DNA of 64,000 nt from Phlebopus portentosus. Taxonomy: Eukaryota > Basidiomycota > Agaricomycetes > Boletales > Boletinellaceae. Positions within the stretch are counted from its first letter, which is position 1, and the number at the start of each line of letters is the position of its first letter. A model generated the notes under the pieces. That model worked only from the letters and a program-made list of their open reading frames with translations, was not told the origin of the DNA and did not search any database. Both the position numbers and the translations under genes were made by a program. Where the stretch lies: NCBI GenBank assembly GCA_037892935.1, contig JAYXKI010000007.1, positions 1,612,001-1,676,000 of the forward strand, read 5' to 3'. Of this stretch, positions 27,971 through 58,422 are shown one piece after another.

Positions 27971-27987
27971 CATCAGGAAATCAGTCC
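27971..27987 (+). repeat. Left terminal inverted repeat of the giant transposon
   Basis: CATCAGGAAATCAGTCC, complementary to 58406-58422 at 16 of 17 positions, and directly after the CA duplication at 27969-27970. Confidence 0.88.
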
Positions 27988-28069
27988 ATTTGGGTTATTA
28001 ATGGATAGTGAGTTATAACACCATAGTAGTTTATAGTAGTACATAGTGTACTATAATAATGTATAGTAA

Positions 28070-28735
28070 TATATAGATACATATAGATGGTATCCTATAG
28101 TAACGTATAATGCATAGGTATGAATAGCAAATGATAGTATCATATAGTTTGATATCTCTGTATAAATTCTGATAAATAGTTATAGTCTATAGTTCAAAGA
28201 AGTGTATAGTTGTTCATAGCAGTGAGCTATCTATATTAGTATCTAGATAGTAATAGAGGTTAGTTATACATAGTCAATATATGGCTAATAATATATAGAA
28301 ATATATAGATGCATATAGATAGTATCTTACAGTAACATATAGTATATAAACATGAATAATAATCAATAGTATAATATAGCTTGATATCTCTATATAAATT
28401 CTGATAAATAGTTATAGTCTATAGTTCAAAGAAGTGTATAGTTGTTCATAGCAGTGAGCTATCTATATTAGTATCTAGATAGTAATAGAGGTTAGTTATA
28501 CATAGTTAATATATGGCTAGTAATATATAGAAATATATAGATGCATATAGATAGTATCTTACAGTAACATATAGTACATAAACATGAATAATAATCAATG
28601 ATGTAATATAGCTTGATATCTCTATATAAATTCTGATAAATAGTTATAGTCCATAGTTCAAAAAAAGATATAGCTGTTCATAGTAGTAAGTTATTTATAT
28701 TAGTATCCAGATAGTAATAGAGATTAGTTATATAA
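28070..28735. repeat. 232-bp A/T-rich tandem repeat, about three copies
   Basis: The marker GATATCTCT recurs at 28151, 28383 and 28615, a period of 232 bp, within strongly A/T-rich DNA full of ATAG motifs. It forms the left subterminal region of the giant transposon and could hold transposase binding sites. No coding potential. Confidence 0.85.
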
Positions 28736-29160
28736 AAGGTAGGGAAAGTATAAACTCGACCAACAGTGATGTGCCACACCTTATACCTTTTGGTCAATAA
28801 CCCTCCCACACAACATCTACAGAAATAAAGAAAATACAACATTTCAAATACAAATTCTGGGTGCAAAGATGTGTAAAGGGCACCTATAACTACAATTTGA
28901 TCATTATAATTTCTAAAAATAAAGTAAAATGAGCTTCCTATTTTAGGAAAAAGTCAAACTTAGCAAACTTACTCCCGTGAATTCTAGAGCAAGCTGAAAA
29001 TTTTCAACAAGATTTTTGCTGCTTACAAATACAAAAATATTATGCAAATGAGCTTATTTGTAATACAATGACATAATTTACTAAGTATTTGTCATACCTT
29101 CATATAGTAAATCTGTCTGGGGGTGGAAGAGCTATCTACTGGCCTTACTGCCTTTTTCAT

Positions 29161-29894
29161 ATGTATTGTCATTCGCGACTTCTGTGATTTTTGTCACACA
29201 GAACACCTCATAATATAAAAATCACCATATCTCACTCAATTTCTGACCTTTCTGCGTGATCTAAGTTGCTAAATCCATAGTTTTAAGATCCTCTTCAAAC
29301 TCCAACACGGATGAAGAGAAATGAGCAAATAATGAGTGAGATATGTCGTAAAAGGCCGATTTTAGACACTTCCTTCATGTGCATTTTTTCCTGCCCTCAG
29401 ACTGGGTGCTACAACAACCTAGACTGCACCAGAGTGGTGCTATTGGCATAATATGAATTTACAGACGTTAGATTGCCTAAGAATGAATTTATTTTGAGGT
29501 CTGGAGGCCCTTGAGAAAAGGTAGGTTTGAGCTCAGCTCAGACATGTATCAAACCAGCAGATACAACACAGAATAGAGCTCAGAGTCAGTCTGTAAATTT
29601 ACAATAAAATAATTATATCATTTTGGACTTGCCTGTAGGACTGTAGAAGCAGGGATGAGGGCAGGAAAAACTGCACATGAAAGATGTGTCTAAAATCGGC
29701 CTTTTGCGACATATCCCACTCATTATTTGCTCATTTCTATTTATAATTGTTGAGGTTTGAAACCAATCTTAAAACTATGAATTAAGCAACTTAGATCATG
29801 CAAAACGGTCAAGAATTGAGTGAGATATGGTGATTTTTATATTATGAGGTGCTCTGTGTGACAAAAATCACAGAAGTCGCGAGTGACAATACAT
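29161..29894. repeat. Foldback element with arms of about 240 bp
   Basis: The left arm (about 29161-29402) is the reverse complement of the right arm (about 29652-29894), with scattered mismatches, around a spacer of about 250 bp. Both arms contain the segment around TCACACAGAACACCTC or its complement. No reading frame. Confidence 0.8.
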
Positions 29895-31824: not shown

Positions 31825-32895
31825 ATGGCAGGCCCTGCATCTGAGTGTAAGTAATGAATGGTGAATTGCCTTCGTAATGTAATGGCCCGCCCATAGCCAA
31901 TATCGACTATCTGTTGTGCAAGTGCATTGGTAAAGGGTCGTTTGGGGCCATATACCGCGCATTGAACCGCTCGACTGGCGATTTAATCGCAGTAAAGCAA
32001 GTTATTGACCAGGACGATAAGATACGAGGCAAGGCGGCCTCCGATGTGTTAAGGAATGAAAGTGAGATTCTAGGGAGCCTCAGCCACCCCAATATTGTGC
32101 AGTACTTGGGATTTGAAGGCGGGGATGGCTCTGAAATGATGTGAGTGCCTCTTGCATGCCTTTACCAGGCACTTAAGGGGTGTTTTCCAGGTTCATGGAA
32201 TATGTCTCGAATGGATCTATCAGGGCCTGCTTAAGGGAGCATGGCAGGTTCGAAGACCAAGTTTGTCGGTCGTTCACGGGTCAAGTTCTTGAAGGAATTG
32301 GCTACTGTCACTCCAAAGGCATAATCCACAGAGTAAGCTGGTTTATTGTTTTGTAACACCACATTTACTGAGCATATATGCAGGACTTGAAGAGCGACAA
32401 CATACTTGTCGGTCCTTATGGGGTCTGTAAAATTGCAGATTTCGGCACTTCAAAGTGCACTGACGACGTTTACATGAACAAAATGCACTCTCCCCTCCGA
32501 GGCACATTAATCTACATGGCGCCGGAGGTGCTACGAGCAATGTTTGGATACAGTGCGAAAGTAGACATCTGGAGCTTGGGTTGTGTGGTGTCTGAGATGT
32601 GGACTGGCCATCGACCCTGGGAGGGCAGAGAGGTGGCTAATATTATTCTCGTGGTAAGCAGTGCTGAAATGGCATTGTTTCATGCTAACTAACTTGCTGC
32701 GGTTGTCTCTAGTTAGGAGGAAAAAAGCCAGAGCCCCCCTGCGTCCCACTGGATGCAGTTCCTGGGCCTGATGGGGATGACTTTAGAAGGCGCTGCCTTT
32801 CCATCAGCCCAGATGGGCGACCAACTGCATCTGAGCTACGCCAGCATCCTTATCTAGCCGTGAAACCAGGCTGGTCCTTTACGTGTTTCAAATAA
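31825..32895 (+). CDS. Protein kinase, MAPKKK (STE11/Bck1)-like catalytic domain
   Basis: A Ser/Thr protein kinase of 286 residues, essentially only a catalytic domain. Five exons: 31825-31846, 31897-32140, 32191-32332, 32384-32653 and 32713-32895, with gt...ag introns of about 50 nt that keep the frame. All core motifs are present: glycine loop GKGSFGAIYRA, ATP-binding Lys in LIAVKQV, catalytic loop IIHRDLKSDN, DFG in IADFGTSKC, APE in YMAPEV, and KVDIWSLGCVVSEMWTG. These fit the MAPKKK branch. No regulatory domain is visible, so it could be constitutively active or act on one host pathway. It lies inside the giant transposon, bracketed by palindromes at 31391 and 33056, and has no stop or frameshift. 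Confidence 0.9.
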
Positions 32896-35931: not shown

Positions 35932-36656
35932 CTGTCGAGATACATCTGACCACGTGACAGCTCTTCAAAGTTGGCCAGTAGGGGGTTTTGATAGTGCAAG
36001 GGTAACTCAACAAACGTGCATTGATACCTGAATTTTTGTCATGTATTTTACTGTATAAAAACTTTTAATTACATTCTGGCAAAATTCTAGAATCTCTTGG
36101 CCACAGGGATTTTATGCAGTGCTAAATTTCAGCTCACAGCAGTCCTAAAAATAGTCTGGCATTGTCAGAAAGGCCCAAGCTTTGGTGGTGGCACAGGCCT
36201 CTAAGTATGTCAATATGGGCAGGCTTGGGAATCATATCTTATTGCCATGTTTTGTGAGTGCTGCAATATGTAAGCTGATATCTAAGACTCAGCGCCCCTA
36301 CTAGTACAGCTGGGATCCCATGTTTGAGTAGTACAGCTCAGCTCATAATGTGCTGTGCAAAGGAATGACCTTACATATACGTGCGTATCAAGGCTATGTC
36401 TGATTTTGATTTTTCTTGTAAGCCCATACCGCCTGCGCTGTAAGGGTATGGGCTGCTGACACAGCAGTCTAATAGCAGCACCTGGTCAGTTCTCTCAGAT
36501 CCAGAAGTAACAGCTGTCCCCGACTATAAATACCCTCCCCCAGCCACAGCCACCATCGTAGATGGGCAAACTTTGTGAGCTGCTGACCTCTACACTAGCC
36601 GAGGGTAGTGACGTGGCAATTTTCAGCACAAGGTGCTCTCTGCTCCTACCAACAAC

Positions 36657-39600
36657 ATGCCCATCTCTAGCAACTGGTGTCCATCATGCTTCAAGACTTT
36701 CAACAATTCAGCTGATGTCACCAGGCATATCAAAGTTAGCAGATGCAGAGAGAATGTCAGGGATGGGCGCCATTCAACACCTCAGCCAAGCTTTCTCAGA
36801 TCCCCCTCCCATCATGACGCAGGCGATTTGCACAAAAACCTTGAACAAACTGACAGCAATGAAGTCACGGGCTTGCTTGACTATGTCATGGAGGTAGACA
36901 ATGATCTGGGATGGGCATACTTGAACAACAGCGAAGCTGCCAGTAATGGCAACCATCCTACACCAACTTCTCACCAACCAGCGAATCTGGAATCTTGTGG
37001 ACAGGCAGAAGTGGAGAGTAGAGCTGCAGTCGACTACTTTGAAGGAGCTGGGAAGGTCTATGGCAAGGGGGAGGACACCTTTAGCAGACTCTGGACCTCT
37101 GGTGAATGTGCTAGCTATAGAAGGGCCAACCCGTACTATCCCTTCTCCTGCTTTACGGACTTTGAAGTTGGAAAATGGCTTGTGGAGTTGGGCATATCAC
37201 AGTCCAAGATTGATGAGTTTTTCAAGCTTAAATATGTATGGTACACCTTAATTCCTCCATGAAATCTAAGTACTGACTAAAAAATTTAGGTGCAGGATAG
37301 ACCACTTTCATTTGATAGCAGCAATGCCCTGCGAAAGAAAGTGGAGCAGCTTCCGAGCCCTCCATGTTGGAAGGAAGCAGAAGTAGAAGTCCCTGGAGCC
37401 AAGACTCAGCACCCTTTGAAGCTGTTTTATCGAGATGCTTTGGAGTGCTTCGAATACCTCTTTGGAAACCCAGTTTTTAATGGAAAGATGGAGTTTGTGC
37501 CCCAAAAAGTCTGGCAGGGGGATAGGGCAGAGTGGCTGTACTCAGAGATGATGACTGGTGACCTAGTCTGGGATGTGCAGGTCTGTTATTACAACCTCTT
37601 CTTAAGTGCTCGCATACTGAAGCATTGCAAAGTCAAAGGTTTCGCCTGGTGAAACACTGGGACTTGTTATCCTAGCCTCTAACAAGACTCACCTCACGAA
37701 CTTCCAAGGTGATAAGGAGTGCCATGCCGTGTATCTTACCTGTGGAAATATCCACAAGGATCTACGTAGGAAAGCCACTTCACGAAGTTGGATGTTGATA
37801 GGCCAAATTCCCATTGCAAAGTTTATGGAGGATAAGGAAGTGGCAGAAATGCTTGCAGCTCGGCTGTACCACCGATGCATGGATATCATCCTGGAGAACA
37901 TGAAGAGATGCTCGCATACCCCCAAGCTTATTGTCAACCCAGCTGGTGATAGACGATTAGTCAGGATAATAGCTGCTGCACTGCAAGCTGATCTACCTGA
38001 AATGCACACAATCGCCTGCACTTCACAGAGGGTGTCACCTGTTTCAACTGCTGAGCAAGCTGACTTTGGAGATGGAAAGCAACATAAGCTACGAAAGGGC
38101 CAGAGCACGCTCAAGGAGATCGACTCACTCCTCAGCCACACCAGTCCACAGAACTTCATTCACTTTCAGAAGATTGCGAAGGAGAAGGGCCTTAATGGAG
38201 TTCAGGAGCCTTTCTGGAGAGACTGGAAGTTTGCAGACCCCTCTGTTGTCCTGGCTCCTGATGCTCTGCATCAATGGCACAAATTTTTTGCCGACCACCC
38301 TCTCAAGTGGGCAGTCTCTCTTCTAGGGAAGGAGGAGTATGACAAGCGGCTATCAGCCCTTTAGCCACGTATTGGGTATAGAAGCTTCCCCCGAGGTGTC
38401 ACAAAGTTCAAGCAACACTCCTTAAGGGAGACTAGGGATTTAGAGTGCTCTCTGGTTGCAATTTTGCAGGGCCACCCTAGGGTTGAACTGGAAACCTTGA
38501 AGGCATTTTGAGCTCTGAAGGATTTTATTTACACCGCACAATACGAGAGCCAGTCGACAGGTACCTTAAAAGATATGGACAAGTACATCAAGATCTTCCA
38601 CAGGCACAAGAAGGCACTTTCGAATGCTGGGGTGAGGGATGGAATGCAGAAGAGGGGGGAATTTCGCATTCCTAAGATGGAGCTGCTGATGCATGTAGTT
38701 CAAGCTATACGAATGTTGGGGTCAGCCCCTCAGTTCTCAACTGAACAGTCGGAGAGAGCACACATCACAGAGTGCAAACAACCCTACAAGCTCACAAACC
38801 ACAGAAGCTACCAAGAGCAGATGTGTCGCAGACTAGACAACCTACTTCGTGTCCATGTGGTCAGCCAGCTTGTGCTTTGGGAGGAGTGTAGGAAGCAAGC
38901 TGGCCTCTCATCCCAGGAGGCAGACCTAGATCCCAAGGAAAACACCTGCCTCACAAAGCAGATGTCAGAGAAGCTGCGCCAGAAGTTCTTGCCACAGCCA
39001 GTGGAGGACATATCAATGAATGAGATGGCAGTGTGGGGCGATAATTCCACCTAGTTGCTAAACTTCCACTTCGACCATATCCATGTCAAGTTTGATTCTG
39101 TGGAGCCTCGTTATGGTGCAGCCCAGTTTCAGGAAGAACTCCTCAAATACCTTAAGGATCAGCACCATCATCAGCCTTTTGAAGGTTTCCGCATGCCATT
39201 CAATGAGCTGTTCATCTGGTGGAGTGTCAGGGTCCAACTTAAAGATCCTCAAGATGAAAGCTCTCCACAACCGCTGCAACGAATTTCTGCACGTCCAAAG
39301 ACTGCCTTAAAACCGGCATGCTTTAATTTTGTTCTTGTAGATGGTGCAAGTAAATTGGGCATCTATGGGATTGTTGGTAAGCCATTCAGAGACCAGGCTG
39401 TCATAGTGCTAACTAGATAATGTCAGGAGATCACTTTGCGGCACAGCTCCGCATGGTGTTTGTAGCCTGCAACAAGCACTCAAAGGAGAGGTCTGAGCCC
39501 CTTGCATATGTGCATGTGCTTATTCCTGGAGACAAGTCGGTTAAGTCCATAGAAGGTGAAAGGCAGTTTTGCCCGGATGCTGGTACAGAGATGTTTCGTG

Positions 39601-40494: not shown

Positions 40495-43400
40495 ATGGCA
40501 GGCCTAAGTGATGGGCCACTACGGCCACCTGACTCACCAACTACGGATTGTAGCTCTCTCTCTCGTCCTCCCGATGAACTGCCAAGCCCAGAGCAGCCTC
40601 AAGACTCTCCGCTCACGCCAGAGCAGCCTCAAGACTCCCCGCCCACGCCAGAGCAGCCTCAAGACTCTCCTCTCATGCCAGATCCGCTCACGCCAGATCT
40701 GCCCACACCCACCTCCTATCCTCCTGCAATGGCAGGTGAAAACCCTGATCCGACCCAGCTGTTGTGTGATGCAACGACAGATGGGGTCTCGTTCTCTCCA
40801 CTGTCGGATGGCGTGCCAACTTCATCAGAGACACCCGAGGCCTCTCCACCACCTCGCGATCATCTCAACAGCCTGATCGAGAGATTCCAGCGTGGCCCGA
40901 GCCCGGTCGATGCAGCCATGCTACTTTCCCCAGTTAGCTCTACAGCGAATTACTACATGCATCCACAGAGTGTGCGGGACCTACTTGCGCAAGTTGACCG
41001 TCGAGAGGACGTTCCTGGGACACCCGAATTCCTCCTCCGCCGCCTGTACGCCGTCACTCACAAGTTTAATGATAAATTCATCAACGGAGCCAAAAATGGT
41101 AATGTATTCGCCAGATCCGCTTTCCTCGAGATCAAGGAGAACGTGGCTTCAGAGTGGATGCATGGCTTTGCCCAGAATCTCGTTTTCGACAAGGTCGCAT
41201 TCGCCCTCTCCAAGTGCCCTGCCGAGGATGACAGGCCACTGCAATCTCCAAGTATGGGAAGTCTCGGCATTCACAAGAGTCTGAAGAAGGTGTTTGACCG
41301 ATATGAAGACTGGAGGACGACACTTAAGGAGTTCAAAGAGGTGATGGAACACACCTGGAGGTACAACGATAACCAATACATTTTCCCCTGGAGCAAGGGC
41401 AACGCAATCTCTGATTGGGTAAGGGTGGGGTTCATCGAGGGCGCTGATTCCATGGATGTTGTAAAGCCTCTGGTAGAATCCGACTACAGCTCCCAGCTGA
41501 TGCCGTCCCTCTTGAAAGATGTTCCCGCGCAAACCCCACCTCAGCCTGACTCTGGTAATGATGAGATGGACGTTGATGCGGATTCACAAGCTCATGCGGC
41601 TTCTGGTAACAACGATGGCACCCCTAGCCCTGCTAGGCCGGAATGTGACGGCCCTGGACAGATAGACGAGGTTTCGCGATCTCTGATTCAGGCTCTGAAC
41701 AAGACCTGGGGTAGCGCCAGAGCCAGCATGGTCTTTACTAACTTCTGCTATGCCGCACTTGGCTTGCGTGGTTTGATGCTAGTGAGTTAATTCCACGTAT
41801 GTACGGAGCTTAGACTGATGCTACTGGCAGAGAGGTGAACAGATCCGTTCAGAGAAGGGCTCAATGAAAAAGCTATATGATCTACTCAAGTGCGTTTTCC
41901 CCTTCTAAGACAGACCGAATAGAGCGTAACGCATACAACAGCCCAAATTCGAAGGACACTGGGGATATCGTGAAAAAGAAGACTGCGGGGGACTTTCAAC
42001 TGCTTCGCCCACTGTACGTCATGTCAATGATATCACCGATTACCCTTCTGGGCGGCTCTGTCATTAGCAGTTCCCATGAGCGGATTCCTTTATTCGCCCT
42101 CGCCCAGGTACGCCTGCGCATATTCCGTCGGTTCTGCACTTACGTTGAAGCATAGACTGCTACTGCTCGGGGACTTAAGAGAGACAGGACGAGAATGCGT
42201 ATCGAGTATATGCTGTCATGGCTAGTGATCGGCATGACTCTTTACGGTGCAAAGGTGTATGAAGCTGGTATTTCTGCCATTTTAGGAGAATGTGACTCTC
42301 TCTGGAACGAGGAAAGCACGAGTGCTCCAGGCGCTCAAGCCTACATCCAAGAACAAAGCCCTCCTCCTAGCAGAGCTTCCTCCCACCCTGCGCCTGGCAT
42401 TTCTCCGGTGGTCCCAGAGCACCCTCCTGCAAGCGATGATGGCTTAAGTGATGGCGGTTCAAATGAGGACGCAGAGTTTGAGAACTCAAGAGCGCTAGTC
42501 AGAGACACCAAGGTGACACCCAAGGAATGGGAAAGGATGCTGAAAGAAACCACTGATGAGACGACGTACCTGCATCGACGCTTGCTTTCTGCGATCCGTC
42601 AAACCCTTGTCGATGATATGAAAGGCGTGAACTTGCTAGGTGATGGCTCGGCCATGGTTGATGGAGTCCTACGCGACGCATATTTACAGGTGCAAAATAA
42701 CAGTGGAAAGCCTTACCGGCTAAAGCCCATAAAGCTAGCATCATGGTCACAGATCCCAGTCGGGGCTCCCTTGGAGCTGTCGAGCAAACGCATGGCAGAC
42801 AACGATGGGGATGACAACTCCCGCCCTTCCAAGCGCATCAGGACTGGAGAAGAGAGTTCAAAAGCCACCAGCCGACAAAGGAAGGCGGGGCATAAGAAAC
42901 ACGAGAGCGCGAAGATGGTCATCGATGATGACGCCAGTAGCAATGGGGAGGAAGAAGGCGGGGGTGAGGAGGTCGTAGATGAAGAGAGAAGGGCGGATGT
43001 GGAGAGACCTGCAGAATCGCAAGGTGATGCCGATGTCCATGAAGAGGAGATCATAGCCAACGTTGGTGGGTTGACTGGTAACGGCCAGCACACCCTAGCA
43101 TCGGCGGTGCTCGTTGAATCAAATGAAACTGGCTCTCAAGCATCGGCAAGCCTGCCAGTCCCCGATGTATACGGACAAGCTACAGATCTAGAGTGGCGAA
43201 GCTGGGCCATTCCCAAGGTCAGTGCAGTCTCGAGTTGCATCATCGCCTCGTTGGGCTAACTTTCCAAAAGAAAAAACCAGAATTCATATCTATTCACAAT
43301 GTCCCAGTCATCAAATTCAAGCAAACGGAAAAGACATCCAAGAAGGGAGCAAAGTTGAAAACCTATAGACTCGAATGGGAGAAAGAAAGCTTCACTGTTT

Positions 43401-45419: not shown

Positions 45420-45855
45420 GCCCGTGCTGCGTAGCCAGGGCAGTGCCAGCCATCTGGGAGGTGTGCTATGCGCTGCTGAACCCATGCCACTTAGCTGGGG
45501 CGGCGCTGGCACACTTCGGCCCTCTGCCAGCCATCTGGGAGGTGCGCTATGCGCTGCTGAACCCATGTCACTTAGCTGGGGCAGCGCTGGCACACCTCGG
45601 CCCTCTGCAATCCAACCGGGAGGTGTGCTGCGCACTGCTGAACCCATGCCACTTAGCTGGGGTGGTGCCGACACACCTCGGTCCTCTGCCAGACACCTGG
45701 GAGGTGTGCTGCACACTGCTGAACCTATGTCGCTTAGCTGGGGCAGCACTGGCGCACCTCGGCCCTATGCAAGCCAGCTGGAAGGCATGCTGTGCACTGC
45801 TGAACCTGTGCCACTTAGCCAGGGCAGTGTTGCCGCACCTTGGCCCTCTGTGAGC
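45420..45855. repeat. 81-bp minisatellite, about five copies
   Basis: The marker TTAGCT (or TTAGCC) recurs at 45491, 45572, 45653, 45734 and 45815, each 81 bp apart; a shorter first copy begins near 45420. As 81 is a multiple of three, frames stay open on both strands, which explains the long apparent ORFs. Located upstream of the TET/JBP gene. Confidence 0.92.
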
Positions 45856-45976: not shown

Positions 45977-47652
45977 ATGGCAGCAGGTACTTCTATTAAG
46001 TCTAAGGCAGCTGGTGCTGGCCAGCGAAATGAGAGCAGCACATCGCCGCAAGCATCAGTTATAAAGCCTGCTTGCCAATCTGAGGGTGCATTGAGACTGG
46101 GTTTGCAGGCGAGCTTAAGGGCTCCAGGCCTACCTGGTGAGCAGCTAATCCCTCAAGGACTAGAAGAGTTGGCAGAAGTGCCCTCACCATCCATCGCTTC
46201 AAAACAAAAAAATCATCCGAGAGGCAGGGCATCTCGTGAGAAGCATGTCAAGCGACACAGGCAACATATGGAGCAGGTTAAGGAGTGAGTGGCCAGCTAT
46301 TCTCCTACAAGTCTTGCTCAGCACAGCCCATCACCTGGTAGTCAACCGACATTCAACACCCCAGCTTCTCCAAAGCCAGAAGGCCATTACAGAGGTTCTA
46401 TTGGAGCTCCGCTAGGTGATCCAGTCTTAAGTGCACAGGAGTATGTGGTAGACCTAGATGTCCACCATCTTCAAGGGACAGGGCCAGGTTGGATAGGCCT
46501 AGGCGACAGTAGGTGCATTGCTACATTTGCTAAAAAAATTGCTGAGCAGTAGATGCAGGTACAGGGCCAGAAGTTACATCCTTGGATGGCAGCGAGATAA
46601 AACGGCTTGTAGAGCATGAGGGGTGGCGCTATATTCCAAATGACCCCAGGTAAGTCGCTGTTGGATTCCTAACTTCTATTCTAACATGGGCCATCAAGGA
46701 GGGCGCAGGTCTTGTTAGACAGGGGGAGGCGAGTTTTTGCTGTTAAAGCCAGAACACCCAACAACTGGGACCGCACTGTGACTGGGGTTGAGAAAGCCAT
46801 GGATGAATTTAGCTCGGCAATTAACCTTGGGAACAAGGATCTCTTTAATCACAGACGAGGGGAGTTCCCAAGTTTTGTATTTGGTGATGCTGCACATGGA
46901 GGGGGACGATCAGTAAGCAGAGAGCCTCTCTCTATCTGAATGAGACTCACTTAGCATATATCTATAGCAACCTGCGACTGTAAAGGTCAAGGATAGCAGG
47001 GTAGAAGCTCTGCAAAAATTCCAAAATGATGCCAGCGTAGAGCATTATTTGGGATTTGTTTCTAGTAAGTTGACCTGTCCTGGCAATTGCTACTAGCCAG
47101 TTCTCATTGCTGCCAGGCACCTTCAAGACCTGGTTTCCACTCATATCTGAGCTCTATGAGAGAGAAAAGCGATGCACCGCGAGTCACAACAGCATAACAG
47201 CAAGTGCGCTTCTTAAATCGCAGTTCTCCTCTATGGCTCTTAACTTAGGTGGGGAGGTTGCAACATGCTGGCACAGGGATGCAAAGAATTTATTTTTTGG
47301 CCTCTGCTGTGTCGGTGTCTTTAGGTGCTTTGACTGGAGAAATTCTGGACAGCTGATGTTCAAGGAGGCGAAGGTCATCATTGAACTTAGGCCTGGAGAT
47401 GTCGTACTGTTCCCATCAGCAGCCCTAACACATAGGAATGCTCCAATTGCCAATGACTCAAGCAGGAGATCAGTAGTTCTTTTTACAGCTGGGGCAAACT
47501 TTCAGCATATTGCTCAGGGGCATAAGACGGCAGGGTGCAGAAGTTATAAAGAGAGAAAGGAGGAGGCAGAGGCTGGATATAGACGTTCATGTGAGGGGTG
47601 GTGCCTTTACTCCACCCTGGAGGATCTCCAGAGCATAAGAACCTGTACATAG
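45977..47652 (+). pseudogene. Fungal TET/JBP-like 2OG-Fe(II) dioxygenase gene, one in-frame TGA
   Basis: Cargo gene resembling fungal TET/JBP enzymes, which oxidise methyl groups on DNA bases. Exons: 45977-46508, 46565-46649, 46699-46912, 46968-47064 and 47117-47652; the splices keep frame and total 488 codons. The N-terminal third is low-complexity and basic. The catalytic core has LNLGGEVATCWHRDAKNLFF (HxD, about residues 362-364), SGQLMFKE, RPGDVVLFPSAALTHRNAPI (second His, about 415) and SRRSVVLFTAG (Arg for 2-oxoglutarate, about 426). A C-terminal Tyr/Ser/Glu segment ends it. All metal and cosubstrate residues are kept. The only defect is TGA at 46286-46288, outside the domain and possibly CGA to TGA; a 27-nt intron there is too short to be likely. 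Substrate is inferred from the family. Confidence 0.8.
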
Positions 47653-47781
47653 CTGATCTAGTAGCGTAGAATTGAAGGCTGCCACTGCCACCGGAAAATT
47701 GCTGTGGATAGCTTAGTCAGCAGAATTTTCCACGTCAGCAGGCATGCCTCGGCAACAACTTAGCTCTTAGCAACAAACATC

Positions 47782-48090
47782 ATGCCAACTAGGTGCCCCC
47801 ACTCACAAGGCAGGCGTGCCCTCTCCCAGCTCAGCCTAGAGCCATTCGTCGAGGATGCCCAGCTAGCTCTACAGCACGAACCCCTGTCAAGGCATCATAT
47901 TACATACGAGGAGTTTAGCCTTTGGACGACTTTCATGTGGCTGGAATTTAGACTCGGAACGTTTCAACCTGCAAGTCTAGCAGCATTCAGCATCTACACT
48001 GCGCTCAGAACCACAGCCATCCAGGAGGCACCTCCAGTAATTAGGGACTACCTTGTGCATGCTCTTGCTGTAAGACTTTTTCTCAACTGA
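47782..48090 (+). CDS. Small hypothetical protein
   Basis: A 102-codon ORF from the ATG at 47782, about 130 bp after the TET/JBP gene. It begins MPTRCPHSQGRRALSQL and has a helical central part with HHITYEEFSLWTTFMW. I do not recognise it. It could be a first exon of a longer gene, since usable splice sites follow. Confidence 0.4.
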   Translation: MPTRCPHSQGRRALSQLSLEPFVEDAQLALQHEPLSRHHITYEEFSLWTTFMWLEFRLGTFQPASLAAFSIYTALRTTAIQEAPPVIRDYLVHALAVRLFLN

Positions 48091-49256: not shown

Positions 49257-49715
49257 TGTAAGGACTCGAACATTTTCCTTTTCTTTTCTGATGTCATCAT
49301 TTATTATAATATTCTTTTTCTTTTCTTTTATTTTTCTTATGTGCTTACTCATCCTTTTTGCTGGAACTTTCCACAATGTTCTATCACGCTCACTAATCAT
49401 CCCATTCCTTGTCATGTGACTTCCTATTAGAGTAGACCTTTCCCGCGCTCAAAGTCTATATAAGTAGATAGTTTGACTCTTTCGTTCCTTGTCTTTCTAT
49501 TCTACTTACCTTCACTTTGACATAGGTATCTACTCTTGTATTAATAGTTTATTGAATTCTACTTACCTTCACTTTGACATAGCGTTCGACGGTCTGGACT
49601 TAAGCCTCGTCTTAGCTGTCTTGACCTGAGCGACGTGTTTGGGATTATCTCATTCATGCTTGTTTGTTGTTGTGTTGGCCTGCCTCGACTCAGTCCTTGA
49701 GCCGTCCGCCTAACA
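49257..49715 (+). repeat. 5' LTR of the chromovirus
   Basis: 459 bp, TGTAAGGACTCG...CCGCCTAACA. It contains a TATA box (TATATAA, 49457-49463) and two direct copies of a 27-bp motif containing CTTACCTTCACTTTGACATA (near 49501 and 49558). The 416-bp leader 49716-50131 that follows has no gene; a primer site is not obvious. Confidence 0.95.
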
Positions 49716-50131
49716 TAATAGAAAGACCTACCTCTGGCTCACGCCCGATTCCGTTGTCGTCGAGCGCTCGCCTGTGACGTGTCCCCTGAAGTATATCTTC
49801 GAAGGACGACATCGAACGAAACCCGGTTCCTACCGTGCAGACAACAAACCCCTATCTTGCCCGTCGAAGTCTGATTGACTCCGACGTGACCCGATAGTAC
49901 CCGAAGTATCAACCAATCACATCACCGTGGCGCTCCGAATCACCCTTCTCTGGAACTCCCATCAAACCTTCTCGTGGGTAACGCATAGAGTCCAGTCGTC
50001 GACAAGTATCTCCTTCATTATCTACCTCGGAGCCTTTCGTTTAGTCGTCAATTTCAAAGACGAGCCGGTTATCCGAAGTCGGTCCCGCCCAAACAGCATC
50101 CCGATCCCCGTTCCACCCCCAGCCTATCAAG

Positions 50132-51577
50132 GTGGAGCTAACTGACGAGCAACGAGCGGCCCTCCCTGCGAACTCTAGGTGGAGCGCCTCGCGAGGACAT
50201 TATATCGTCAAAGCAGGAAACCAAGTCTTCGGCGCCTGGTGGGACGAGACTGCCAAGAGGTGGTACTCCCAGAGGGAAGGAAGGTCCATCCACTGGAGAG
50301 TGAAACAAGAAGGCGACGTAGACGAACCCTCACCTCCTACTCCGACGCAACCAACGGCACCCTTACCAGAACCCTCGGGTTCGACCACTCAAGCGTTGGC
50401 CCCCACTGACAAGCCTTCTCCGGCGTTTGGAAGGTTCCGAGAACCAGCGCCACTCATACCGAGTGAAGAAGACGAAGAAGAAGAAGAGGAACACGAGATG
50501 TCATTGTCAAAGGAAGCGATGACTGATCTCGCAACGGCGGTCGCACTAGCGCTCCAAGCGGCAGGCGAAGGTGCAAACCAAGGATCAAAGGTGTCGAAGA
50601 AGGTCCACGTCGCCAAACCAAGAGACTTTGATGGCGAACACGATTATGTGGACTTCAAGCGAGAACTGCGCCTCTACATCTACGCATCTGAGTCAGAGTT
50701 CAGGACGAACAAGAGTAAGATTATGTTCGCCCTGTCGTACATGAAGAGTGGTGCCGCGGCTCGCTGGGCGGAGAGTTACACCAGTGGAGCAGTCGATGCA
50801 GATGGCAACTTGACATTCACGGACGCCTGGGACGCCTTCTTAAAGAAGCTGGACACTTCGTTCGACGACCCCGCCAGGTCTCAGAAAGCTTTCGAACGAC
50901 TTGATGCAATGTACCAAGGAGACCTCAACGCCGATGAGTTCTTCAACAAGTTCGACATCTGTCGAGTGGACGCTGGTCTAGCGATGGAAGCGCATGACGA
51001 ATGGTTGATGAGTCGCCTGAAGAGGGCACTAAACCCCAAGGTTGTCGAAGGCGTCATGAGATTGCCTAATGAACCAACGTCGTACGAAGAGTTCAAGAAG
51101 GCTGCCATCAAAGTCGACAGGGTCGAACGCCAAATCAGGGATCTGATGGCCGAACGACGGCGGAAGGCGACAAACTCGACTATGGCGAAGCCGGCTCCAG
51201 TACCACCACTGCGACGACCGGTGCCGCCTCAACAAGCGACTCGCCCCTTTGTGCCCCCCGCCCAAGATCGTCGTGACGCAACGGGAGTGACGTATGGAGG
51301 CTTAGGACAGCCAATGGACGTGATGATGAACCAGGCACGTCGTACACGTGCTTGTTACAAGTGTGGTCAGGTGGGCCACTACATCAGGGAATGCCCGCGA
51401 GGCCGGGAAGCGATACGTGCCATCATCGCAGCCTTTGTTCCAGAAGACAGAGAAGCGCTCCTCGAAGAACTCGGTCAAGCGAAGGAATCCTCCTTCGAAG
51501 AGATCGAGGTCCGAGCGGTGCCCACTGAGCTGGAAGAGTTAGTGGATGGTGAGGGTTTTCTAGAAGACCAGGCGTAG
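50132..51577 (+). CDS. gag: Chromovirus Gag
   Basis: Capsid-nucleocapsid polyprotein, 481 residues. Order: Pro-rich and acidic N-terminus, capsid region (KVHVAKPRDFDGEHDYVDF, FALSYMKSGAAARWAESY), Arg-rich linker and one zinc knuckle CX2CX4HX4C (CYKCGQVGHYIRECPRG, near 51350). The listed start codon is ATG-like by frame (MELTDEQRAALP); the frame begins shortly after a 416-bp leader. It ends with TAG at 51575-51577, overlapping the pol frame by 25 nt. Confidence 0.92.
   Translation: MELTDEQRAALPANSRWSASRGHYIVKAGNQVFGAWWDETAKRWYSQREGRSIHWRVKQEGDVDEPSPPTPTQPTAPLPEPSGSTTQALAPTDKPSPAFGRFREPAPLIPSEEDEEEEEEHEMSLSKEAMTDLATAVALALQAAGEGANQGSKVSKKVHVAKPRDFDGEHDYVDFKRELRLYIYASESEFRTNKSKIMFALSYMKSGAAARWAESYTSGAVDADGNLTFTDAWDAFLKKLDTSFDDPARSQKAFERLDAMYQGDLNADEFFNKFDICRVDAGLAMEAHDEWLMSRLKRALNPKVVEGVMRLPNEPTSYEEFKKAAIKVDRVERQIRDLMAERRRKATNSTMAKPAPVPPLRRPVPPQQATRPFVPPAQDRRDATGVTYGGLGQPMDVMMNQARRTRACYKCGQVGHYIRECPRGREAIRAIIAAFVPEDREALLEELGQAKESSFEEIEVRAVPTELEELVDGEGFLEDQA
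51553..51559 (+). promoter_or_regulatory. Predicted -1 frameshift heptamer of the chromovirus
   Basis: GGGTTTT, phased in gag as G|GGT|TTT. The pol frame has a TGA at 51550-51552 and opens exactly at this heptamer, so a -1 slip here is the natural route into pol. Confidence 0.7.
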
Positions 51578-54500
51578 ACGTCGGAACGACTGGTCGGTCT
51601 CCTAAAGGTCGCTTTTCATTGGACTCGTTAAAATATAATCGTCCTGCTGTACAATATCAAGATGCGAATACCAGTGACGGTTTCATCCTTCGAAAGATCC
51701 TTACCGATGTACTGCCAGATGAATCTGAAGATGACAACGATGACTTCGAAGTCTATGAGGATTTATTTGTCAGAAGAACAGATGCGCCAGCAGGCGAGTT
51801 GAGAGAGGAAGAGCGGAATCAAACCGCTATAAAAAATGAGGTTGTGGCGGAAGCACCTTACCGCGAGAACGTTGTTGCTCAGGCGAACGTCACTGAAGCA
51901 GTGTGGGATGTAGTAGGCAGACGCGCGGCTGAGGTATGGCGCGAGGGCATTGTGAACGCAGATCAGTTCGTGCGACGGGTGGGAGGAAAGGAGTTAGACG
52001 CCTTCGTTAGCATCGTACACCCAAAGGTAGCAGGTGATGACGAAGTAGACTTGTCGAACCCCCTACTCGAAGAGGAAAACTTCATTGATGCTTATGCACT
52101 GATCGACTCAGGGTGCACAGGCTCATGCATCGACGAAGGTTTTGTCAAACGATATGGTTTCCCCACCCAAAGGTACATTCGGCCTAGACCAGTCTTCAAT
52201 GCTGACGGAACAAGCAACGAGGCTGGATTGATCAAGGAATATGTAGTCGTACGAATGTTCTTTGGAAAACATGAGGAAGAGATTCGACTGGCCGTGACAT
52301 CCTTAGCATCAAGCAACATCTTCCTTGGACATGACTGGTTGACGAAGCATAATCCTGAAATCGATTGGAGGTTAGGAACAGTCAAGTTCACCCGTTGCCC
52401 TGATGAATGTGAGTCGCCACTGTCGAGCGAAGAGATAGATGAAGAGTTTGTGAGGAATGTGCGGATGAAGGAAGCGGCAAAATGGCCACCTTACCTGGAG
52501 GAATACGCCGACGTCTTTAGTGAGGAATCGTTCGAACGCTTACCAAACCACCGAACGTGGGACCACGCTATTGACCTGAAACCGGATTTCAAACCCAGTG
52601 ACTGCAAGGTTTACCCGTTATCGCCAAAAGAACAAGAAGCAATGAGAGAGTTCATTGAGGAAAACCTAGCGTCAGGACGTATCCGACAGTCGAAGTCTCC
52701 AATGGCGTCACCATTCTTCTTTATCAAGAAAGAGGATGGGAGCTTACGAGCAATCCAAGACTATCGAAAGCTCAATGAAGGAACGGTCAAGAACAAATAC
52801 CCGTTACCACTGATAAATGAGCTCATCGACAAGGTTAAGGATGCAAGGTACATCACGAAGCTCGACGTTCGATGGGGATACTACAACATCCGGATTCGCG
52901 AGGGAGACGAGTGGAAGGCAGCGTTCCGGACAAATCTAGGCTTATTCGAACCTACAGTCATGTTCTTTGGCTTGTGTAATGCGCCAGCGACGTTCCAGGG
53001 CTTTATAAATGACATCTTTCGGGAGCTAATTCATGAGGGTATCGTCATCATTTACCTCGATGACATTCTCATCTTCTCGAATGATCTAGAAGAACATCGC
53101 AGACGCACCAAACGAGTCTTTGAGATCCTTCGCCAGAACGGACTTTTCCTAAAGCCGCAGAAGTGCGAGTTCGAAGTTGATACAGTCAAGTACCTCGGGC
53201 ACATTATTGGCAATGGCGAAGTTCGAATGGATCCCAAGAAGACAGCGGCAGTACAGGACTGGCCAGTTCCAAGAAACGTCCACGAACTGCAACAATTCCT
53301 GGGACTAGTGAATTGGTTGCGACGTTTCGTTAAGGATTACAGTTCAGTTGTCAAACCCTTGACTACACTGACGGGTAAGGTGGAATGGAAGTGGGGCGAA
53401 GATGAACAGGCAGCGTTCGAAGAGTTGAAGCGTCGTTTGAGTAGTCCTCCCGTGTTAGCGATACCCAACAACGAGGACCCTTTCCGTGTAGAAGCAGATG
53501 CGTCGGACTTTGCGACTGGTGGAGTCCTTCTCCAGAAACAAGACGGTAAATGGAAGGTGATCGCTTATCGGTCGTCAACATTCCTAGAGACAGAGCGAAA
53601 CTATGAGATTTACGACAAGGAAATGCTCGCCATTGTTCAAGCCCTAAAGGAATGGCGACAATATCTCCAGGGAGCTAACCAACCTTTTGAGGTATGGACA
53701 GACCATGCAAATCTAACATACTTCCGATCGCCGCAGAAGTTAAATCGTCGACAAGCTCGTTGGCGACTCGATTTGGCTGAGTTCAATTTCACGCTAGTCC
53801 ATAAACCTGGAAAGACGTTGGGAAAAGCTGATCTGTTGTCACGCCGGGCGGATTATGACAAGGGCGAGCGCGATAATAAGAACGTGACTTTCATCAAGAA
53901 GGAATGGCTGGTTAGAGGAATGGTTCAGACGTCAAGAGAAGTACTCATTGAAAAGGTCGTGGAAGCACAGAGACGAGAGGACGAGGGAGTGAGGCCGAAG
54001 GACGTCGAGAAGAGAGGGGACATGTGGAGAAAGGGCCGCCGACTATATGTACCAGCGAGCATCAGAGAGGACGTCATGAAGGAACACCATGACTCGACCC
54101 TGGCAGGACATCCAGGAGCAACAAAGACGATCCAGCTGATAGCACGCAGGTACTGGTGGCCGAGGATGAGTGCAGATGTGCGGGTGTATGTGCGGGGGTG
54201 TGATCGTTGTCAGCGGACGAAGGCTCTAAGGACAACGAGAGCAAAGGTTTTGCACCCTAACGAGGTGCCGGAGGCGCCATGGCAGATTGTCACGGTCGAC
54301 CTAATCGGAGAGTTGCCAGAATCGAATGGGTTCAATGCGATTTGTGTAGTGGTCGATCGCTTTAGCAAACAAATCCATGCAATTCCAACAACAACAAAGT
54401 TAACGGCGGAAGGCATGGCTAGGATCTACCGAGACCACGTCTTCCGATTACACGGACTACCACGGAAGATCATTCATGACCGAGGGGTGCAATTCGATGC

Positions 54501-55443
54501 AAAGATGATGAAGGAGTTGTACAAGCTCCTCCACATCGAAGGCAACCCATCGACAGCGTATCACCCACAAACTGACGGACAGACAGAGCGGGTTAATCAG
54601 GAACTAGAACAATACCTGCGGCTATACGTCAACCATCGGCAGTCGGACTGGGTGGACTGGCTGGCTCTCGCAGAATTCGCATACAACAACCGTGAACATT
54701 CAGCGACGAAGCTATCTCCCTTCTTCGTCAATACGGGAATGCACCCCTTGGACTTCACGGGGGTTGGAACGGCATCATCGAACCTGTCAGCAGAAGAATT
54801 TGCCAAGCATGTCAAGGAGGTGCACGAACTCGCTCAAGGTAACCTAACCCAAGCAAACGAAGACATGAAGCGTTTCTACGACCGCCATGCTGGGAAGTCC
54901 GTTACCTATGAAGCAGGGCAGAAAGTCTTCTTAGATGGACGAAATATCAAGACGATCCGACCGACGAAGAAGATGGATGATAAATGGTTCGGTCCCTTCG
55001 AGGTAGTGGAAAAGGTTGGCGCAAGTGCATACAGACTCAAAATACCGAAGGCCTGGAAGAAGGTCCATCCAGTTTTCAATGAGATCTTGCTCAAACCAGC
55101 CGTCCAACCGTCCTTTGAATCGCAGAAGAAACCACCTCCACCACCGCCGGTGATCATTGATGAGCAGGAAGAGTATGAGGTGGAAGAAATACTCGACTCG
55201 CGTCTGCATCGAGGCAAGCTCCAATTCTTGGTCAAGTGGGTTGGATATGAGGAAGCGACTTGGCAGCCAGAATCCGACGTCAAGGATAATGCGCAGGAGT
55301 CAATTCAAGAATTCTACCGCAAACATCCTGGAGCTCCAAGGAAGTTAATGATACCTCGACAAAGCCTGCGAGCGCTGTACAACTTCACGTCCTCAGAAGG
55401 CTTATGTGGTTGGTCGGGACGCCCAACCTTGAAGGGGGGGTGA
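51553..55443 (+). CDS. pol: Chromovirus Pol (protease, RT, RNase H, integrase, chromodomain)
   Basis: An uninterrupted polyprotein of about 1290 residues reached by frameshifting. Protease active site ALIDSGCTGSCID (near 52100); RT with IIYLDDILIFS (near 53050); RNase H (VEADASDFATGGVLL to VWTDHANL); integrase HHCC zinc domain (HHDSTLAGHPGATKT, CDRCQRTK); DDE core (VTVDLIGELP, IIHDRGVQFD, QTERVNQELEQ); GPF motif (DKWFGPFEVVEKV); chromodomain EYEVEEILDSRLHRGKLQFL then VKWVGYEEATWQPESDV near 55170-55280. The chromodomain marks it as a chromovirus and would guide integration to marked chromatin. All catalytic residues seen are intact. The stop TGA directly abuts the 3' LTR. Confidence 0.95.
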   Translation, partial: GFSRRPGVDVGTTGRSPKGRFSLDSLKYNRPAVQYQDANTSDGFILRKILTDVLPDESEDDNDDFEVYEDLFVRRTDAPAGELREEERNQTAIKNEVVAEAPYRENVVAQANVTEAVWDVVGRRAAEVWREGIVNADQFVRRVGGKELDAFVSIVHPKVAGDDEVDLSNPLLEEENFIDAYALIDSGCTGSCIDEGFVKRYGFPTQRYIRPRPVFNADGTSNEAGLIKEYVVVRMFFGKHEEEIRLAVTSLASSNIFLGHDWLTKHNPEIDWRLGTVKFTRCPDECESPLSSEEIDEEFVRNVRMKEAAKWPPYLEEYADVFSEESFERLPNHRTWDHAIDLKPDFKPSDCKVYPLSPKEQEAMREFIEENLASGRIRQSKSPMASPFFFIKKEDGSLRAIQDYRKLNEGTVKNKYPLPLINELIDKVKDARYITKLDVRWGYYNIRIREGDEWKAAFRTNLGLFEPTVMFFGLCNAPATFQGFINDIFRELIHEGIVIIYLDDILIFSNDLEEHRRRTKRVFEILRQNGLFLKPQKCEFEVDTVKYLGHIIGNGEVRMDPKKTAAVQDWPVPRNVHELQQFLGLVNWLRRFVKDYSSVVKPLTTLTGKVEWKWGEDEQAAFEELKRRLSSPPVLAIPNNEDPFRVEADASDFATGGVLLQKQDGKWKVIAYRSSTFLETERNYEIYDKEMLAIVQALKEWRQYLQGANQPFEVWTDHANLTYFRSPQKLNRRQARWRLDLAEFNFTLVHKPGKTLGKADLLSRRADYDKGERDNKNVTFIKKEWLVRGMVQTSREVLIEKVVEAQRREDEGVRPKDVEKRGDMWRKGRRLYVPASIREDVMKEHHDSTLAGHPGATKTIQLIARRYWWPRMSADVRVYVRGCDRCQRTKALRTTRAKVLHPNEVPEAPWQIVTVDLIGELPESNGFNAICVVVDRFSKQIHAIPTTTKLTAEGMARIYRDHVFRLHGLPRKIIHDRGVQFDAKMMKELYKLLHIEGNPSTAYHPQTDGQTERVNQELEQYLRLYVNHRQSDWVDWLALAEFAYNNREHSATKLSPFFVNTGMHPLDFTGVGTASSNLSAEEFAKHVKEVHELAQGNLTQANEDMKRFYDRHAGKSVTYEAGQKVFLDGRNIKTIRPTKKMDDKWFGPFEVVEKVGASAYRLKIPKAWKKVHPVFNEILLKPAVQPSFESQKKPPPPPPVIIDEQEEYEVEEILDSRLHRGKLQFLVKWVGYEEATWQPESDVKDNAQESIQEFYRKHPGAPRKLMIPRQSLRALYNFTSSEGLCGWSGRPTLKGG

Positions 55444-55902
55444 TGTAAGGACTCGAACATTTTCCTTTTCTTTTCTGACGTCATCATTTATTATAATATT
55501 CTTTTTCTTTTCTTTTATTTTTCTTATGTGCTTACTCATCCTTTTTGCCAGAACTTTCCACAATGTTCTATCACGCTCACTAATCATCCCATTCCTTGTC
55601 ATGTGACTTCCTATTAGAGTAGACCTTTCCCGTGCTCAAAGTCTATATAAGTAGATAGTTTGACTCTTTCGTTCCTTGTCTTTCTATTCTACTTACCTTC
55701 ACTTTGACATAGGTATCTACTCTTGTATTAATAGTTTATTGAATTCTACTTACCTTCACTTTGACATAGCATTCAATGGTCTGGACTTAAGCCTCGTCTT
55801 AGCTGTCTTGACCTGAGCGACGTGTTTGGGATTATCTCATTCACGCTTGTTTGTTGTTGTGTTGGCCTGCCTCGACTCAGTCCTTGAGCCGTCCGCCTAA
55901 CA
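55444..55902 (+). repeat. 3' LTR of the chromovirus
   Basis: 459 bp, preceded by a G run (AAGGGGGGG) that is the likely polypurine tract. Eight transitions separate it from the 5' copy. Confidence 0.95.
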
Positions 55903-57518
55903 GTGTGGGAGTGACAATGGTGGTAGGAGCGATGGTGGTAGTGGAAGCTACCACAAGGGCAAGGGTGTGGAAGAGGCCTACTCTACTGACAATAGCGACT
56001 GGGAGGCAGTTCAAAACAAGGGCCGAAACACAAGTGTTAAGAAACTTCTAAAGTCTAATCAAGAGGTCTTTATGGAGATTGAGGGCAACCTAAGTGACGA
56101 TCCCTCTGGAAAGGATAGCAAGCAGCATAGAAAAGCTCAGAGAAAGTGGAAGTCAAGGCTTGAGCAAGGTAAGTGTCTACCAGCTATTACAAGCTGTTAC
56201 TAACAAAGGACAGAGCCAGGTCGAGCGAAGGATGACCACTTTCTGTCCAAATTCAAGGGTCCAGAGAAGCTACTTATGATTACTGCATCTGGCATGCTCA
56301 GACTATATACGCTTGCCTACCAGTTTTTCCCAGACTACCATACACAGTCATCTACTCAGCGCAGCGTACTGAGTAAAGCAAGGCAGCAATTGGGTAGTAA
56401 TAACCAAAATGGTGAGTAGCTTTTATAGGAGTGGACCTGCGTCCAAAGTGCTTAGCCGAGTTTACTTTCTAAAGTTTTTGGAGGAGCAGATACCAACAAC
56501 TAACTGAATGATAGACTGTGTAAGTACTTCAATATATGGCATCGCTACAATTGACAGCTGGCCTTTAGCTCAGTAGAGAGACGACTACTATAAAAGGGGC
56601 ATTTATAAGAACTGCCAGAGAGATAGTGCTCGAGTACTACTCAATCACTCCAGGCCGAGATGATAAAGATGTCAAAGACATTTACAAAGGTCGTATTGAA
56701 CAGCTTTCTGACAAGATCACTGAGGAGGTTAAGGAAACTGCGATGAGAAAGGCTCTTAAAGCAGCAAAGAAAGGCCGTGTAGCAGCACTGATAGGTGACT
56801 TGCTTGAGGAGCTGAGCAGCAACTACATGTTTGCCACCTTAGATGTACGTCTGCCAACTTTTTCTTAGCAGTGAACTCATATCTCAACGTCTCAGAGTGA
56901 TAAAGGGGATCCTTACTCCCATGAAGCCATTCATGAGCTCATTGCGAGAACAGTCTTTACACATACCAAGGATTTGGTAGCTCTCTCTGAGCGCCAACCA
57001 GGCTGGGTCCGGCCAATACCAATCCATCTCATCGCAGTAGCTACACAAGCTGTAAGTTGCTTTACTGTAAAGAAGCCTATTTGAGAGCTAATATAAGTTA
57101 GATCTGTTGCGCGCTAGAAGAGCATTCTTCTGGAAATGCACAGAGAGCTTCAACTAGCTTTTCAAGTGCCAGGTACAGGTCGCCTGTCAATGTGTTGAAG
57201 GAGAACATAAAGCTCTTCAAGATAAATGAACCCGAGTCATTCGAGAAAGTACGAACAGCGATACTTAATATGGGAAAGTAAGCATTAGTATTATATACTA
57301 TATAGTCTTCTATTAACATCTAAGTAGAGCTCGTCTATCTTCAAGGGGAAAGCGCATCTTAGAGCAGAAGAAGGTGGCAGTAGGCTATAACCCTAATAAG
57401 AGAAGGCGTACTGACAGGTAAGTCAAAGTGAACCTTCTACTGTGATTTCGCCACTCATTACTAATAGTAGTGACTAAATATGACGTACTCTGGCTATAGG
57501 AAGGGCGTCTTCGACTAG

Positions 57519-58405
57519 GCTCATCTAGCTGTTCCAGTAATGTAAGCAGCTTCTATTAGCTTCTAGAAGCAGCTAGCTCACCATTTGATAGCGCCTATAT
57601 ATTTCTTTCATCTTATTTTCCTCTCTTGCTCTTTTAATTCACCGCCATTCCTTACTTAATTGTAACTCTAATCATCCCTACGAGGTTTATATATATCTAG
57701 ATCACTCTCAGAAGTGCTTAATAGGCGTGTGAATAGATTTAAACTGCAGCTATGATAATCTAAGTGCGCTACTATCTACTGTCTGACTATGAACAGAGCA
57801 GTTATCAGCAACTATCTTTTACTAAGAATCTCTATCAGGCATTAGTATGCTATTCAGTAATATCCGCTACTAGTAATTATAAGCTACTCACCACTTTATT
57901 AGCCTTCTATCAGTTTATACTGGCTAACAAATATAGTTTATTATACTTTATAATAAACTACTATTAATAACTATCTTGGTATAACATAATATCCTCTAAT
58001 AGGTACTGGCTACTATCTATGACTACCTACTACTACATAAGACTTTAGTCTAGTATCCGCTATAGATACTACTAATTACACAATACTACTGCAAACTATA
58101 GCCTCATATCTGCTACTATTACCTGCTACCATCTACATACTAACTTACTCTAACCCCACTTATTGACAACTATTCAACAATATTGGTAGTTAGACAATAT
58201 GTACTATCTACTACTTTGTAGCCCTATAAATAAATATCAACTATGTAACTATGGCCTCTATAAAGCTTTACAAGCCTCTATATAGTAGGGGGGTCACGAT
58301 AAATCACTATAGACTACTAACTTATTATAGGCCTCTATATAGCAGCCTATAGCAGTAGGTAGTAGGGAGTAATAGGGAGTAGCAGGGAGTAGCAGTGGAT
58401 ACTTT
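57519..58405. other. Right subterminal region of the giant transposon
   Basis: A/T-rich, with many CTACTA, CTATATAG and, at the very end, repeated AGTAGCAGGGAGT motifs. No gene. It mirrors the A/T-rich left end and may contain transposase binding repeats. Confidence 0.55.
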
Positions 58406-58422
58406 GGACTGTTTTCCTGATG
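58406..58422 (-). repeat. Right terminal inverted repeat of the giant transposon
   Basis: GGACTGTTTTCCTGATG, complement of the left end with one mismatch; followed by the CA duplication at 58423-58424. Confidence 0.88.

Follow-up and report, generated by a model that had tools for sequence, protein, structure and literature searches.

The closest described systems and the present element

The closest described relatives of the element reported here are the TET-bearing PlavakaB transposons of Agaricus bisporus and Gymnopus confluens (Agaricales), whose termini read CATCA..TGATG and whose target-site duplications (TSDs) are 2 or 3 bp long (Kojima 2025, PMC12730594). The abstract of that paper groups Plavaka with TET proteins of the PE type, for which HxE is the hallmark, and its main text states that the published TET-bearing elements mostly have undisrupted frames, that base hypermodification is discussed for divergent TET types, and that the function of transposon-borne TET has not been experimentally validated (PMC12730594). 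Here we describe a block at positions 27971-58422 of a 64,000-nucleotide stretch of Phlebopus portentosus DNA (the window; contig C7, or G000:C7, 1612001-1676000, in an assembly of 38.4 Mb and 23 contigs). The block contains a Plavaka-type element that carries, beside its transposase, genes for a MAPKKK-like kinase, a JmjC protein, a TET/JBP-like dioxygenase and a DUF6532 protein. Below, C1, C2, C6, C14 and so on are contigs of the same assembly, and L-numbers denote loci in it.

As PlavakaB is described in Kojima's main text, the present element shares with it the Plavaka transposase, the CATCA..TGATG ends and a TET/JBP-like gene on board. Its own TSD is CA, and among 20 insertions examined 14 have a duplication within the 2-3 bp of PlavakaB, one has 4 bp and five have none. 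All three features compared, transposase family, termini and TSD, agree with the PlavakaB type. The TET proteins differ, those of the published PlavakaB elements being HxE (PE type) and the present one HxD. An HxD TET/JBP gene on a DNA transposon of Agaricomycetes is likewise known from Kyakuja/Zisupton elements with AG-type TET, and from CcTET of Coprinopsis cinerea, but their transposase group differs from Plavaka, and sequence searches of PDB chains with the present TET returned no TET structure. The IS3EU elements of rusts also combine TET and a kinase in one transposon (Kojima 2025, PMC12730594), but with another transposase, an alpha-kinase instead of a MAPKKK-like one, and no JmjC gene reported. 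Kojima's main text, its supplement aside, has no mention of a JmjC gene, a MAPKKK-like kinase or DUF6532, and an alpha-kinase appears there only in IS3EU.

An earlier note on the window had taken an element with this cargo to be undescribed. For the combination with JmjC and kinase genes this stands, no description of it having been found in the literature searched, Kojima's supplement aside, but a TET-carrying Plavaka with CATCA..TGATG ends had already been published (PMC12730594). As far as our searches and the main text of that paper show, what is new is the presence of JmjC, kinase and DUF6532 genes in one element, the HxD-type TET, and satellites with the same ends that carry pieces of Argonaute and Hsp70 genes.

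The element moves as a single unit

The block is bounded by exact 17-bp terminal inverted repeats (TIRs), a left, T-type end at 27971-27987 on the plus strand (CATCAGGAAATCAGTCC) and a right, A-type end at 58406-58422 on the minus strand (CATCAGGAAAACAGTCC), the two sequences being the same except for a single base. Reading of the flanks revealed the TSD CA at 27969-27970 and again at 58423-58424. Two matches to the ends within the window, with up to three mismatches, were reached in 7 of 100 shuffles and are so not very rare. Genome-wide, the exact end pattern occurs at 56 sites, compared with 0 for a reversed control, and pairing by hand yielded 22 convergent pairs, always one A-type with one T-type end, and 12 unpaired ends. 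Allowing up to two mismatches added 14 further sites (3 in the control), and all six of the one-mismatch ends deviate by C-to-T or G-to-A. The ends and the 2-bp duplication that the earlier note had read from the window are thus genuine.

The same note had taken the whole 30 kb for a Plavaka element. A bounded mobile block it is, but the element proper measures ~23.8 kb, and the rest is a younger retroelement of 6.6 kb nested at 49257-55902 (plus strand), a later insertion with TSD GTGTG that is not part of the cargo. We call it a long terminal repeat (LTR) element, judging from its repeats and long frames; its LTRs have 8 differences in 459 nt, and it is missing from the copies on C6 and C14 described next.

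Copies were counted by protein queries, an 18-kb DNA query having scored merely 4 of 178 candidates genome-wide, and the counts are lower bounds, as they cover the best-scoring candidates only. These searches of the P. portentosus genome showed that the order kinase, Plavaka transposase, JmjC, TET/JBP-like, DUF6532 is kept at at least seven loci: the window; C6:138517-162224; C1:2083793-2120558; C2:1726003-1763732; C14:398341-422436; the element surrounding the latter, C14:380126-465042; and C7:1677691-1701558, which has one mismatch in its second end. The earlier note had called for a search for other end-bounded copies of this gene order, and six further loci are the answer. At some of the seven, other insertions separate the five genes. 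Two complete copies are free of the retroelement, C6:138517-162224 (23,708 bp) and C14:398341-422436 (24,096 bp), and both are 95.8-99.5% identical to the window in long aligned blocks and ~92% identical at 33.1-33.9 kb. Partial copies lie at C6 ~312-317 kb and C3:70-80 kb, and relic stretches at about C3:2.73 and 2.76 Mb.

A TSD of at least 2 bp was present at 15 of the 20 insertions examined (13 of 2 bp, one of 3 bp and one of 4 bp), the chance of a 2-bp flank match being 1 in 16. The empty-site test that the earlier note had proposed was also positive. When joined, the flanks of the window element match a related retroelement stretch in the window itself, at 1959-2957 (94.8% over 1000 nt, with one gap), and a second empty site at L033 (94.2% over 899 nt). 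The C14:398341-422436 copy has its empty site at window 24767-25364 (98.3% over 598 nt, gap-free). The satellites L015 and L019 (in the nested retroelement of the window itself) have clean empty sites too, whereas in the case of satellite L013 the joined flanks aligned over little beyond one side.

The earlier note had also named two findings that together would speak against a mobile cargo, namely same-ended copies lacking it and a conserved chromosomal locus for it. Copies of 7.4-9.4 kb with the same ends and without transposase and this cargo do exist, but a conserved cargo locus was not found in this genome: TET-like sequence occurs at at least eight element copies and in one relative of 43% identity, and the nearest kinase outside the elements, among the candidates scored, has 60% identity. 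Because the same gene order recurs at seven loci, with TSDs and empty sites, the mobility of the block claimed by the earlier note is confirmed, and it is nearly certain that cargo and transposase move as a single Plavaka unit.

Two predicted dioxygenase genes of different families

The core of the TET/JBP-like gene lies at 45977-47652 (plus strand; six exons, 473 amino acids) and may extend downstream. Its frame is open in the window and in the C6 copy and has one stop in the C14 copy. The open frame contains WHRD and THRN, which by reading, from their order and spacing, we take to be the Fe(II)-binding HxD and the distal His; HRD stands in the window protein where the PE type has HxE. We regard the product as a putative, divergent TET of the HxD type with predicted activity in the oxidation of 5-methylcytosine (5mC). 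A shorter TET query scored 0 of 845 candidates at E 0.5, and searches of PDB sequences with a partial TET model and with an alignment (A1) returned no TET structure.

Among the candidates sharing most words with the queries, all relatives found were from Sanghuangporus sanghuang (S. sanghuang), two proteins for TET and one for JmjC. The TET relatives match Tet_JBP at E 4e-4 and 8e-4, and a structure predicted for one of them, P0001, from a three-row alignment had a mean pLDDT of 29 and was useless. P0001 and P0002 start in TET and extend to the exon preceding DUF6532, and P0003 (1794 amino acids) unites JmjC and TET in one gene model; faulty annotation can give rise to such joins. Should TET and DUF6532 form one gene, it has been split in the window by the retroelement at 49257-55902. 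Beyond the TET core, on its downstream side, 47764-48090 holds a short open frame that has no Pfam match and is fused to TET in the S. sanghuang models. Outside the seven elements, a diverged TET-like sequence (43%, C7:735461) and a JmjC-like sequence (42%, C7:736398) lie ~0.5 kb apart on opposite strands within C7:735461-736592.

The JmjC gene occupies 40495-45145 (plus strand; a 10-exon model of 1328 amino acids with core exons at 44228-44479 and 44530-45145). Its frame is open in the window, and on the same model C6 shows 2 stops and C14 shows 8 together with gaps, the model having been made on the window copy and being biased in its favour. The gene ends are uncertain, the S. sanghuang model P0003 being a fusion with TET. 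As a single sequence, the JmjC segment of the element gave no Pfam match. We rely on a three-row profile made of the S. sanghuang relative and two paralogues from the P. portentosus genome (36 and 35% identity); in one of these paralogues the first Fe-binding His is replaced by Arg. Against the PDB, 14 of the 19 sequences listed for this profile were KDM7/PHF8/PHF2/KDM2A (E 2.4e-12 to 2.9e-7), and the remaining five had E above 1. An HxD and a distal H are present in the window protein. It is thus a predicted KDM2/7-type JmjC protein and a putative histone demethylase, like the KDM2/KDM7 (PHF8) demethylases in core profile match, HxD and distal H, and unlike them in sitting in a transposon and in being about one third identical to paralogues of its own genome.

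Cytosine-directed decay of the repeats

Changes private to one copy are mostly C>T or G>A. In the left part of the element they make up 42 of 47 such changes in the window and 45 of 48 in C6, in both largely at CpG, and 9 of 14 in C14, and in the right part 16 of 18, 16 of 19 and 5 of 7, respectively. Between 40.5 and 46.9 kb the fractions are 36/54, 58/71 and 195/215; this excess in C14 is sharply bounded and would reflect either a burst confined to the segment or its conversion by a copy already decayed. Twelve satellites gave 440 of 544 private changes as C>T/G>A. When the window was compared with a hypermutated relic copy, 645 of 735 differences were C>T/G>A on the relic side, at site rates (the window base taken as ancestral) of 0.54 for CpG, 0.30 for CpA, 0.17 for CpC and 0.05 for CpT. 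Four pairs of retroelement flanks showed transitions and transversions of 81:1, 9:1, 14:1 and 22:2, whereas a host Argonaute pair showed 405:304. For CpG, observed/expected stands at 0.49 across the element's left part, compared with 1.10 in window 1-27900, and a cytosine methyltransferase-like gene is present in the genome.

Because the repeats decay by C-to-T and the host pair does not, we conclude that the element is exposed to silencing or mutation aimed at cytosines. The decay looks like the outcome of repeat-directed cytosine methylation and deamination, or of a process resembling repeat-induced point mutation (RIP). The RIP-like pattern stands beside literature that, in the parts consulted, reports no hypermutation detected in agaricomycetes. 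We claim no link between the presence of TET and milder non-CpG decay: the CpA/CpG rate ratio is 0.17 in the window, 0.09 in C6 and 0.4-0.9 in several satellites, and a relic of the TET family itself has 0.56.

A satellite family with the same ends

Fifteen TIR-bounded copies form a satellite family, twelve of 7.4-9.4 kb (L009-L020), two larger ones with insertions (L021-L026) and C1:2302131, a larger one recognised by its ends alone. Compared with the window element, identity is 81-83% over their first 640 bp and 83-87% over their last ~184 bp, and they also contain a 110-125-bp stretch that resembles the 81-bp repeats of that element. The satellite scanned in detail, L012, contains no transposase-like open reading frame (ORF), and the genome search gave no Plavaka match in the small satellites. 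L012 holds two Hsp70 pieces (E 8e-26 and 9e-13), a weak SAC3/GANP-like piece below the cut-off (E 0.002), and Argonaute exons with ArgoL1, PAZ, ArgoL2 and Piwi, ArgoN being matched merely at E 0.08. Over most exons the satellite Argonaute has 79-90% amino acid identity to two loci at C4:1.88-1.90 Mb, and 68% in the last; there is an interruption in the Piwi part, and the end of the gene is missing. Elements with these ends contain or adjoin at least 24 Piwi loci, by manual count from the Piwi list.

The satellites are best read as non-autonomous derivatives with captured host gene pieces. Pack-type elements are a non-autonomous class, and the satellites resemble them in lacking a transposase, sharing ends and carrying pieces of host genes; they differ from them in having Plavaka ends and in having captured the greater part of an Argonaute gene. 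No purifying selection was detected on the satellite Argonaute, with 88 non-synonymous changes against 90.3 expected and P 0.04 in one of five segments.

The host Argonaute pair closest to the satellite Argonaute, C4:1883711-1884253 and C4:1896442-1896984 (L042 and L041), is inverted, with ~12 kb between its members, and by reading these loci have Thr or Ala where Piwi has its second catalytic Asp. Elsewhere, Piwi fragments adjoin JmjC-like sequences at three places, L051 (G000:C12:1562600-1566000), C18:89-91 kb and C20:330-332 kb, as if a further repeated unit joined both gene types.

Possible roles of the cargo

We think it fairly probable that a ~24-kb PlavakaB-type family moves four cargo genes as a unit and that TET and JmjC serve against silencing, a judgement that covers mobility and role jointly. 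For the anti-silencing role by itself, which is read from the protein families, the chances appear about even. A functional transposase, for which another copy has an open 599-aa frame (described below), would act on the 17-bp ends and the subterminal repeats, and would also mobilise the transposase-less satellites. The TET protein would oxidise 5mC and the JmjC protein would remove histone methylation, as their families suggest, and together they would delay the silencing of new copies and keep the family expressed. Possible targets of the kinase are the signalling of the host and the other proteins of the element. An anti-silencing module of TET and JmjC would make sense because the element is under cytosine-directed silencing or mutation.

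Several results weigh against this reading. Tet_JBP (PF12851) is the best family for the TET protein, but lies below the curated cut-off (E 2e-4; 20.8 vs 34.9 bits), and Asn and Cys stand at the sites of CcTET Gly331 and Asp337, as found by a gapless count from the His of HxD; this divergence counts against an anti-silencing role. No purifying selection was detected on the kinase, TET and JmjC genes among recent copies, and nothing was significant in comparison with the relic, where the JmjC gene reached P 0.08-0.10 for changes other than C>T, those least affected by decay. Five of the 20 insertions examined lack a TSD. TET-bearing copies still decay at CpG, so that protection, if any, is incomplete. 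Finally, not every difference fits decay, because at window 33.08-33.88 kb only 27 of 57 changes are C>T/G>A and 19 are transversions.

The strongest rival, to which we give a lesser but substantial weight, is that the cargo genes are useless passengers, copies of host genes captured and amplified with the transposon in the manner of Pack-type hitch-hiking. The satellites show that this lineage picks up pieces of host genes, recent copies change near-neutrally, and paralogues of the kinase and JmjC genes exist elsewhere in the genome. Against passengers stands the finding that all four genes keep together, in unchanged order, at each of the seven loci, and that the window has long open frames (on models made from that copy). 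The diverged TET/JmjC-like pair ~0.5 kb apart at C7:735461/736398, which hints that the pairing may be old, and the mostly undisrupted frames of published TET-bearing elements, as given in Kojima's main text (Kojima 2025, PMC12730594), also argue against them.

An unlikely extension of the anti-silencing reading is a two-part counter-silencing system, in which the autonomous element would supply histone and DNA erasers while the satellites spread a truncated host Argonaute. The erasers might be made on one transcript or as a fused JmjC-TET(-DUF6532) protein, as in P0003, and the satellite Argonaute might be a decoy or a source of small RNAs against the host RNA interference (RNAi) gene. Less likely still, and very improbable in our view, the dioxygenases would not be erasers at all, producing instead a modified base or a histone state by which the element's own DNA is marked, or regulating nearby host genes. 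The divergence of this TET from the characterised ones and the hypermodification that Kojima's main text discusses for divergent types (PMC12730594) favour such a role, but the ORFs scanned include none recognised as glycosyltransferase-like or as base-modifying in another way. A chance nest of unrelated repeats between fortuitous ends, to which the nested retroelement and the repeat-rich region of the block might point, is in effect refuted by the six further loci with the same five-gene order, by the two complete retroelement-free copies that keep ends, order and 95.8-99.5% identity (~92% at 33.1-33.9 kb), and by the TSDs and empty sites.

The family is a natural example, rich in copies, of a transposase accompanied by two likely erasers of silencing marks, each of a different class, in a mushroom genome whose repeats visibly undergo cytosine-directed decay. 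Here, TET-bearing and TET-less relatives share genome and ends, so that methylation, expression and mobility are directly comparable, and in the satellites the same ends have brought an RNAi gene to many sites.

Kinase, transposase, DUF6532 and repeats

The cargo that the earlier note had recognised, a TET/JBP-like gene, a JmjC gene, an intact MAPKKK-like kinase and DUF6532, was borne out by domain and profile matches and by the open kinase frame. Pfam scans were run on the first spliced models; the final models of kinase and TET were built by hand with GT-AG checks, and the codon scores used for gene models were trained on the window's own frames, those of the retroelement included. The kinase gene (31825-32895, plus strand) has five exons with GT-AG introns and encodes a protein of 286 amino acids in which, by reading, the main kinase motifs are present. 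Its match to PF00069 (E 9e-30) and its closest solved chains, those of MAP3K5, come from an earlier, shorter model. At 55904-57518 (plus strand) lies the DUF6532 gene, which may instead be the 3' portion of a TET-DUF6532 gene that the retroelement has split; it matches PF20149 at E 6e-19.

The transposase region (36612-39420, plus strand) contains the Plavaka domain PF18759 across two exons (E 5e-73) and, in its 3' part, a DUF6830-like stretch just under the cut-off. The open frame measures 247 amino acids in the window, whose copy is thus interrupted, and 599 amino acids at C1:2110007, so that frames which look intact occur at other copies. Transposases of a different Plavaka group, with open frames of 559-645 amino acids, were seen at C14:274159, C5:340583 and C16:9565.

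Near the left end, three subterminal tandem copies of 232 bp span 28054-28749, the second and third being 91% and 79% identical to the first. Between the JmjC and TET genes lie 81-bp tandem repeats (45444-45848, plus strand), of which the C6 copy has one unit fewer.

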